Shown: in pieces, positions 41,979 through 43,696 of the stretch | Layout: the number at the start of each line of letters is the position of its first letter | How positions within the stretch are numbered: position 1 is the stretch's first letter | Assembly: GCA_021813325.1 (NCBI GenBank) | Contig: JAKALA010000031.1 | Coordinates: 1 to 43,696 of the forward strand | Direction of reading: 5' to 3' | DNA from: a bacterium | Lineage (GTDB): Bacteria; Verrucomicrobiota; Verrucomicrobiia; Limisphaerales; UBA11358 | Length of the DNA stretch: 43,696 nt | Made by a program: the position numbers and the translations under genes | The notes under the pieces: generated by a model | The model's database searches: none | What the model was told of the DNA's origin: nothing | The model's input: the letters and a program-made list of their open reading frames with translations, nothing else

Positions 41979-42911
41979 ATGTTAAACCTGACGAAACCGG
42001 AAGTCATTCTCACCCACGAAAGCGATCTGGACGGTTTTGTCGCCGGGTTGTTGTTGCAACGGCTGGCCAAAAAGCTCCACGGCAACACTGTTCCCATTCA
42101 GGCTTACCACTACAATTATTGGAAACAGCGGGATCTTCGCGAAACCCATGCCTGGGTGACGGATTTTACGTTTGAATCGCGGTTGGACAAGCCGGGCTGG
42201 CTGGTGGTGGATCATCATGTGACCGCCGCGCCCGCGAAAAACGCGCAGTTCATTCATGACGTCAACAAGTCCGCCGGGCTGCTCTGCTATGAACTGTGCC
42301 AGCAACACGGCCTGGGTTCGCCAGCGCTGGATCGGCTGGTGAAACTCAATGACGTGGCGGATTTGTTTTTGGAAAACGATCCCGATTTTGAAATCGCCGG
42401 GGATTACGCCGGACTGGTCAAAATTTATTCCTTTTGGACACTGCACACGCTCATTGGCGGCGAGCTGGAAAACCTTTTAAACCACCCGCTGCTGGAAGTC
42501 ATGGCCGTGAAACGGCGGGTGGAAGATCCGATCGGCTACGAATGGAGCCAGCGGCATGTCCAGGAAGTCTCCCCCGGCGTTGGCTTCGTCGATAATCTTA
42601 TCGGCAACACCAACCAGATCGTGCATCAACTGCTGGAGCGAAAGGCCACAAAATACTCCGTGCTCGTGACGTTGTTTCGCCGTTCCAACTCCATTTTTGC
42701 CAGCTTTCGCAGCCGCCATGGCGAGGCCCTGAAATTCGCGGAAAAGTTTCAAGGCGGCGGACACGTCAACGCGGCGGGAGCCATCTTGCCCAAGTCAGTG
42801 CGAACGATCGAAGATGGCGTGGTGTTCCTCCGGCAAATGTTGAACGTTAAAACGGAGCCGGCTTTGAACAATCTGGAGAGCTTGTTCGCCCAGATTGATC
42901 TGGGAAAATAG
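41979..42911 (+). CDS. DHH-family phosphoesterase, NrnA-like
   Basis: This 310-residue protein has the DHH phosphoesterase layout: 'HESDLDG' at 13-19, Asp62 in 'VTDFT', 'VDHH' at 77-80, an Asp near 'KLNDVADL' around 122-129, and the DHHA1 substrate-binding loop 'GGGHVNAAGA' at 259-268. The family includes NrnA, which degrades nanoRNA and pAp, and cyclic-di-AMP phosphodiesterases. This version opens unlike NrnA and carries an extra 'YHYNYWKQRD' stretch, so the substrate is uncertain; a role in short RNA or phosphorylated sugar turnover is plausible. It is monocistronic on the plus strand behind der. The start is the ATG at 41979. RecJ, another DHH enzyme, is at 17-19 kb. Confidence 0.85.
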   Translation: MLNLTKPEVILTHESDLDGFVAGLLLQRLAKKLHGNTVPIQAYHYNYWKQRDLRETHAWVTDFTFESRLDKPGWLVVDHHVTAAPAKNAQFIHDVNKSAGLLCYELCQQHGLGSPALDRLVKLNDVADLFLENDPDFEIAGDYAGLVKIYSFWTLHTLIGGELENLLNHPLLEVMAVKRRVEDPIGYEWSQRHVQEVSPGVGFVDNLIGNTNQIVHQLLERKATKYSVLVTLFRRSNSIFASFRSRHGEALKFAEKFQGGGHVNAAGAILPKSVRTIEDGVVFLRQMLNVKTEPALNNLESLFAQIDLGK

Positions 42912-43013: not shown

Positions 43014-43038
43014 TGGCGGAGAACGGTGGATTCAAACC
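43014..43038 (-). other. tRNA-Ser-like 3' fragment (possible attachment site)
   Basis: Read on the minus strand, these 25 bases match the last third of a serine tRNA: GG closing the T-stem, a T-loop of the form TTTGAAT, T-stem 3' strand CCACC, acceptor 3' strand GTTCTCC, discriminator G and CCA. The expected 5' part of a tRNA (GGAGAAC acceptor strand, D and anticodon arms) is not found in the following 90 bases, where an IS630-type gene begins instead. Partial tRNA 3' ends are typical remnants of integration sites. Confidence 0.55.
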
Positions 43039-43084
43039 CTAGTATCCACTTGCAAAGACAAGCGTAATAACAAAAGATGGGGGC

Positions 43085-43696
43085 ATGGCCCGACCCGCGA
43101 CCCCCATCGAACTCACCTCAACCGAACGGACGCAACTGGAAAGCTGGCTGCGTCAACCCAAACCCAAACCCGTTTTGCGGAACGGGCGCGCATTATTCTG
43201 TGGGCGGCCGCGGGCTTGAGCAATCAAGCCATCGCCCAACGTCTGGACACCCGCTGCGCCCGCATCAGCAAATGGCGCGTCCGCTTTGACCAGGAACGGC
43301 TGGCCGGTCTGGCCGATGCTTTCCGACCGGGACGGGCGCCCATTTACAACGCAACGACGCGGGAACGGTTGCTGGCGCAACTGGATGAGGCTCCCCCAAA
43401 AGGGCAGGCCCTGTGGACCGGTTCGCTGCTGGCCCAAGCGCTGGGCGATGTCAGCACGCATCAGGTCTGGCGGGAGCTGCGTGCATTAGGCATCCGTTTG
43501 GCGCGCCGCCGAAGCTGGTGCGTGTCTACCGACCCGGAATTTGCGCGGAAAGCCGCCGACATTGTGGGGCTGTATCTGGCGCCGCCCGACAACGCCCTGG
43601 TCTTTGCCGTGGAGGAAAAACCCTGCCTTCAGGCCTTGGAACGCCAGCAGGGATGGTTGCGCCTGTCCAGCGGCCAGGCCTTGAGCGGTTTTCAAC
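43085..43696 (+). mobile_element. IS630-type transposase gene, frameshifted and cut by the window end
   Basis: The ATG at 43085 opens with 'MARPATPIELTSTERTQLESWLRQ', typical of an IS630-type transposase N-terminus. Around 43157-43171 the sequence is a CCCAAACCCAAACCC repeat; beyond it the expected protein ('RFAERARIIL', 'GLSNQAIAQRLDTR', 'ISKWRVRF', 'VFAVEEKPCLQALER') continues in the frame one base back, up to the last base. The N-terminal frame by itself soon meets a stop. A one-base deletion in the repeat explains this. The helix-turn-helix half and the 'EEKP' region at the start of the catalytic domain are visible; the rest lies outside. The left inverted repeat is not identified. Probable dead copy. 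Confidence 0.7.

Follow-up and report, generated by a model that had tools for sequence, protein, structure and literature searches.

How should a stretch of 25 bases be understood that reads like the 3' end of a tRNA-Ser gene, is unaccompanied by a tRNA body and abuts an incomplete insertion sequence: as the displaced tRNA end left behind by an integrative element, as one half of a tRNA gene split by the insertion sequence, or as an accident of composition? The stretch lies near one end of the window, i.e., the whole stretch of DNA that was analysed, which is 43,696 nt long and constitutes the entire contig C13 of an assembly of 4.28 Mb in 123 contigs (95% complete). The features on which the argument turns are as follows:

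41979..42911, plus strand: phosphoesterase-like gene with a DHHA1 match below the cut-off (23.7 bits against 25.9)
43014..43038, minus strand: tRNA-Ser 3'-end-like fragment without a tRNA body, recognised by its similarity to the genome's own tRNA-Ser genes, with no tRNA called
43039..43041, minus strand: possible extra fragment bases, reading TAG before the GG; the IS copies diverge upstream of CTAG here
43042..43696, plus strand: IS630-family insertion sequence, left part only, recognised by a shared terminal repeat; the contig ends inside the IS
43085..43696, plus strand: transposase gene with its ATG at 43085, frameshifted and running off the contig, recognised by its reading frames, HTH domains and a match to NF033545

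The minus strand of 43014-43038 reads GGTTTGAATCCACCGTTCTCCGCCA, in which the GG of the T-stem, the T-loop, the 3' sides of the T-stem and acceptor stem, a discriminator G and the terminal CCA can be followed in order. Of its 25 positions, 21 agree with the 3' ends of both tRNA-Ser(GCT) and tRNA-Ser(GGA) of this genome and 20 with that of its tRNA-Ser(TGA), and the nearest non-serine tRNA, among the 38 own tRNAs compared of 43 Rfam matches, stands at eight mismatches. Neither ARAGORN nor a search at the Rfam gathering threshold detects a tRNA in the 43,696-nt window. These comparisons confirm a tRNA-Ser-like 3' end without a body; as a covariance search with cmscan does not report RF00005 for the 25 bases alone, the tRNA-Ser identity rests on sequence similarity.

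The adjoining insertion sequence begins at 43042 with the terminal repeat CTAGTATCYACTTGCAAAGAC, and the same end recurs on C33 of the same genome and on C20 and C39 of the genus relative G033; the copy in JAJXXW010000025.1 (L125) has it as its right end. Its left flank in the window is the TA at 43040-43041, which represents the target, the base at 43039 being still compatible with the tRNA-Ser-like stretch; the right flank lies outside the contig. The transposase matches NF033545 (109.9 bits against a cut-off of 100), is one base shorter than three relatives at 43161/43162, with a resulting change of frame, and in its VDEK stretch carries Glu where L125 has an Asp that we take to be catalytic. 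The window copy belongs to the IS630 family. Elsewhere in this genome, a further left end is present on C33, right ends are present on C25 and C30, where 127 bases of the IS precede or follow the break of the contig in each case, and C61 carries a copy that has diverged further. Six of the eight IS ends have CTAG at the junction, the exceptions being CTGG on C30 and CCAG on C61; IS630 reportedly prefers a CTAG target, a preference said to go back to Tenzen and Ohtsubo in 1991. Insertion at TA with its duplication is a known habit of the IS630/Tc1-mariner family, as set out for ISY100 (PMC2170065), and the NF033545 transposase, the short terminal inverted repeat and the TA at the insertion point are all features in which the present element is like ISY100. 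Compared with ISY100 (PMC2170065), the window copy differs in being incomplete and frameshifted and in having Glu for Asp in the VDEK stretch, and two of the eight ends examined here carry CTGG or CCAG instead of CTAG. Two elements of the initial annotation, namely a tRNA-Ser 3' end running from T-loop to CCA with a discriminator G and no body, and an adjoining frameshifted IS630-type gene, are thus borne out; the range that it assigned to the feature, 43014-43084, holds for the tRNA-like part at 43014-43038 but is otherwise too long, the IS end starting at 43042.

The main rival to reading the 25 bases as a displaced tRNA fragment is a chance resemblance, in which the likeness of an intergenic stretch to a tRNA-Ser 3' end is fortuitous and the IS landed at an unrelated CTAG. 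The four mismatches in 25 to the nearest tRNA are in keeping with such an accident, as are the missing RF00005 report and the T at tRNA position 56 in the T-loop, a position that is nearly always C in tRNAs. No partner with the fragment's 3' end is found in the genome at up to three mismatches, and any feature of the window could have been noticed, which makes the effective number of trials large and lessens the weight of every p-value. Against this, none of 3,200 dinucleotide-resampled windows contains a tRNA-Ser end at up to four mismatches, 15 sites appearing when five are allowed. When all 34 distinct tRNA ends are used, 60 resampled windows yield no site at up to four mismatches and five at up to five, compared with one and two, respectively, in the real window. 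Further, in approximately 625 kb of real DNA, comprising 80 named loci (duplicates dropped), 29 genus loci and eight stretches of the own genome, the only matches at up to four mismatches are genuine tRNAs: the three own tRNA-Ser genes and one tRNA-Asp. The similarity also ends beside the IS boundary and near the boundary of the comparable fragments in relatives that are described below. On this evidence we regard a chance resemblance as unlikely.

The tRNA complement of the genome bears on all remaining explanations. Rfam yields 43 tRNA matches, 38 of which were typed by ARAGORN and then one more as tRNA-Pro; the four untyped ones span 72-75 bases by Rfam coordinates and are therefore too short for tRNA-Ser. 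The own tRNA-Ser genes have the anticodons GGA, GCT and TGA, with 3' ends that stand, in this order, 4, 4 and 5 mismatches in 25 away from the fragment, and tRNA-Ser(CGA) is absent among the tRNAs typed in the assembly. At up to three mismatches, the genome contains a single copy of the 25 bases. The full tRNA-Ser with the same 3' end that the initial annotation had proposed to look for elsewhere in the genome did not materialise, none being present in the assembly at up to three mismatches and the nearest tRNA-Ser standing at four. By the refuting condition that the initial annotation had set, namely that the 25 bases be missing from every tRNA-Ser of the genome, an exact pair of attachment sites is refuted for this assembly, whereas a decayed pair is not. 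Across 320 genomes of the order, eight contain a match at up to two mismatches, the own genome at zero and seven others at exactly two, so that the precise 3' end is present in no relative among those searched. Viral contigs do not contain the exact 25-mer, allowing either purine at one place.

Could the IS630 insertion itself have split a tRNA-Ser gene, for instance the missing CGA isoacceptor, with the 5' part now on another contig? This had also been offered by the initial annotation, and it would fit the tRNA-like part ending beside the IS, the lack of tRNA-Ser(CGA) among the typed tRNAs and the position of the right flank beyond the contig end. However, the candidate right ends on C25 and C30 run into other transposase remnants, like IS1 and IS4 by names taken from reading their translations, and no tRNA-Ser is detected in them by ARAGORN. 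If the TA insertion is reversed, the T-stem reads TAGGG/CCACC, in which two of five pairs form and three are mispaired. A loose search of the own genome for the 5' half returned nothing beyond the tRNA-Ser genes already listed and sites of no relation to them, and a CGA-type 5'-half pattern, for which there was no positive control, gave two matches in 49 genus genomes, neither of them a tRNA. Additionally, none of 29 relatives' loci has a tRNA-Ser at this place. The remnant-bearing candidate right flanks, the mispaired T-stem and the lack of tRNA-Ser in the relatives' loci together make a split gene very improbable, and this part of the earlier proposal is not supported.

A survey of tRNA-Ser 3' ends in related genomes provides the context in which the fragment can be placed. 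Altogether 59 genomes (the own genome, 35 of the same genus and 23 of the order) were searched for tRNA-Ser-like 3' ends at up to three mismatches, and those of the genus were typed. Ends of this kind, 59 in number, were found in 27 of the 35 genus relatives, and they resolve into 37 full tRNA-Ser genes, 20 body-less fragments and two that lie too near a contig edge. The fragments come from 10 genomes (G002, G008, G014, G018, G019, G020, G025, G030, G031 and G033). All 20 are identical to tRNA-Ser over at least 27 nt from the CCA, and 10 of them over exactly 27, which places their boundary in the 5' strand of the T-stem. In the window, the similarity ends at base 25-26 from the CCA, close to this 27-nt boundary; over 28 nt the window fragment differs at five positions from the type most common among the relatives' fragments. 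By eye, the sequences inside the relatives' fragments fall into several recurrent types common to different genomes.

Six contigs carry both a full tRNA-Ser and a fragment. On four of them the fragment lies downstream in the same orientation, at 7.8 kb (G031 C100), 10.0 kb (G033 C41), 10.1 kb (G008 C11) and 11.3 kb (G008 C83), and all four intervals enclose tyrosine integrases, the integrase gene running into the tRNA-Ser 3' part in three. A fifth contig, G031 C54, has two fragments 55 and 65 kb downstream of a full tRNA-Ser, and in the sixth, G014 C94, the tRNA-Ser and the fragment are in the wrong order. The 20 body-less fragments and the integrase-enclosing pairs show that integration at tRNA-Ser 3' ends is frequent in this genus.

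The shortest of these intervals (L229, G031:C100, 2923-10732) is a 7.8 kb island between tRNA-Ser(GGA) and the displaced fragment. It encodes a tyrosine integrase, a primase/AAA_25 protein with a BT4734-like N-terminus and a protein with a weak terminase-small-subunit match, and looks like a small phage-satellite-type element. Its primase-like protein has relatives at 33-38% identity in three viral loci, whereas no viral relative was found for its 273-aa protein or its integrase; for the 273-aa protein, structure modelling from the single sequence gave nothing informative (mean pLDDT 29.9). An integrase on G030:C391 is a near relative (95%) of that of the island. Further, L226 (G031:C54) and L225 (G030:C391) each contain two co-oriented tRNA-Ser fragments, separated by 10.1 and 7.9 kb, and the interval is free of tRNAs, an arrangement like that of tandem island arrays.

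Taken against this background, we consider it probable that the 25 bases are a decayed and displaced 3' fragment of a tRNA-Ser gene that marks the far-end attachment site of a lost or unassembled element and was later capped by the IS630. As is known from the literature, when an element integrates into a tRNA gene in this manner, the tRNA is restored at one end of the element and the original 3' piece is displaced to the opposite end. In the present case, the tyrosine integrase of the element would have carried out the crossover inside the T-arm of a tRNA-Ser gene. The fragment adjoins the DHHA1-like gene at 41979..42911 with its 3' end toward that gene; as it thereby faces host DNA on this side, the element would have lain to the right. 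Subsequently, the fragment would have drifted, with the decay of approximately four bases, and an IS630-family element would have inserted at the TA on its inner edge, the other parts of the element having perhaps been lost or come to lie on other contigs. The IS630 occupies the inner side, and hence an end of the element could not be recognised there. The fragment, the IS boundary and the genus-wide habit are all observed here. By analogy with the fragments of the relatives, we infer the same origin for the window copy and the above order of events.

The combination of a tRNA, an island with an integrase and a displaced 3' fragment is a described island signature, as given in the Islander paper (PMC4383910). 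Like the displaced tDNA fragments presented there, the window stretch is a body-less 3' tDNA piece with its boundary in the T-arm (subsite J), and the full series of tRNA, integrase-bearing island and fragment, including fragments in series, is matched in the relatives (PMC4383910). Judged by the definition given there (PMC4383910), the window possesses the body-less end piece and the T-arm crossover boundary and lacks a matching full tRNA. It departs from the pattern described there in that the fragment is not identical to the nearest tRNA, and in that the cognate tRNA, the integrase and the element are absent from the assembly, with the result that the window would fail the integrase filter (PMC4383910). 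The fragment's difference from the nearest tRNA-Ser at 4 of 25 positions, as opposed to the exact fragments of the relatives, likewise counts against an attachment-site scar, as do the T at position 56, the missing RF00005 report and the wrong order on G014 C94. The scar that the initial annotation had suggested therefore finds indirect support in the genus fragments, with their near-identical T-stem boundary, and in the integrase islands, but not in a partner tRNA.

The neighbouring gene adds a further complication. Homologues of the DHHA1-like gene are present in 46 of the 49 genus genomes searched, the own genome included, and none of 29 relatives' loci, with flanks of up to 1.5 kb, has a tRNA-Ser nearby. 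Consequently, the attachment-site reading also needs either a rearrangement or integration at a secondary site. The latter could be taken further, such that a mobile element brought the fragment with it as part of its attP and inserted beside this gene, at a secondary site outside any tRNA, in agreement with the tRNA-free surroundings of its homologues in the 29 relatives. However, a second copy of the 25 bases is not found in the genome at up to three mismatches and the element sequence is no longer present, and we give this version hardly any credence. It appears doubtful as well that the fragment remains from an element whose target was a tRNA-Ser variant with the acceptor GGAGAAC, perhaps the CGA isoacceptor, which this lineage no longer has. 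If true, tRNA-Ser 3' ends in this genus would have served for a long time as docking sites for small integrative elements of several unrelated families, serially stacked, and such elements could outlive or remove their target tRNA.

With respect to the displaced-fragment reading, the integrases of the own genome are informative. A Phage_integrase search gives 15 matches, of which five lie 3' of a tRNA: tRNA-Asp (C57), tRNA-Pro (C30), tRNA-Gly (C33), tRNA-Leu-CAG (C105) and tRNA-Cys (C34). A sixth integrase, detected by means of the C30 protein, is situated 3' of the tRNA-Ala gene of C6, bringing those on the 3' side of a tRNA to at least six, and the C9 integrase is situated on the 5' side of a tRNA-Leu. 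None of the 15 matches is near a tRNA-Ser, the nearest being 12 kb off on the 5' side; the interval between the fragment and a partner tRNA is not assembled. C57 encodes the integrase most similar to the Ser-linked ones, at 36-38% identity, among the own loci retrieved. The genome is thus rich in tRNA-linked integrases, but the one that would explain this scar is missing. Far-end direct repeats of the tRNA-Gly and tRNA-Pro 3' ends were not found inside the C33 and C30 stretches.

A scar of this kind is a well-known and ordinary feature, and its value lies in pointing to the genus-wide pattern. That small elements with integrases have repeatedly used tRNA-Ser 3' ends across the genus is a more useful outcome than the scar itself, and the islands of approximately 8-11 kb, together with the 20 fragments, offer a ready set for the study of small integrative elements of an uncultured lineage.

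Some further loci of the own genome may be recorded. On C33 (L044, 1-2200), the second IS630 left end of the genome adjoins a piece of a group II intron (RF02012, at 103-253), and the same contig has tRNA-Gly(CCC) followed by an integrase that is read with one in-frame TAG. On C30 (L217, 5746-7149), tRNA-Pro(CGG) is directly followed by an intact tyrosine integrase of 422 aa, and the opposite contig end is the above-mentioned IS630 right end with CTGG at its junction. Finally, the Phage_integrase matches at C86 (461-913) and C31 (1214-1666) lie in equal 344-aa frames near their contig starts, away from tRNAs, and possibly represent a repeated integrase gene.
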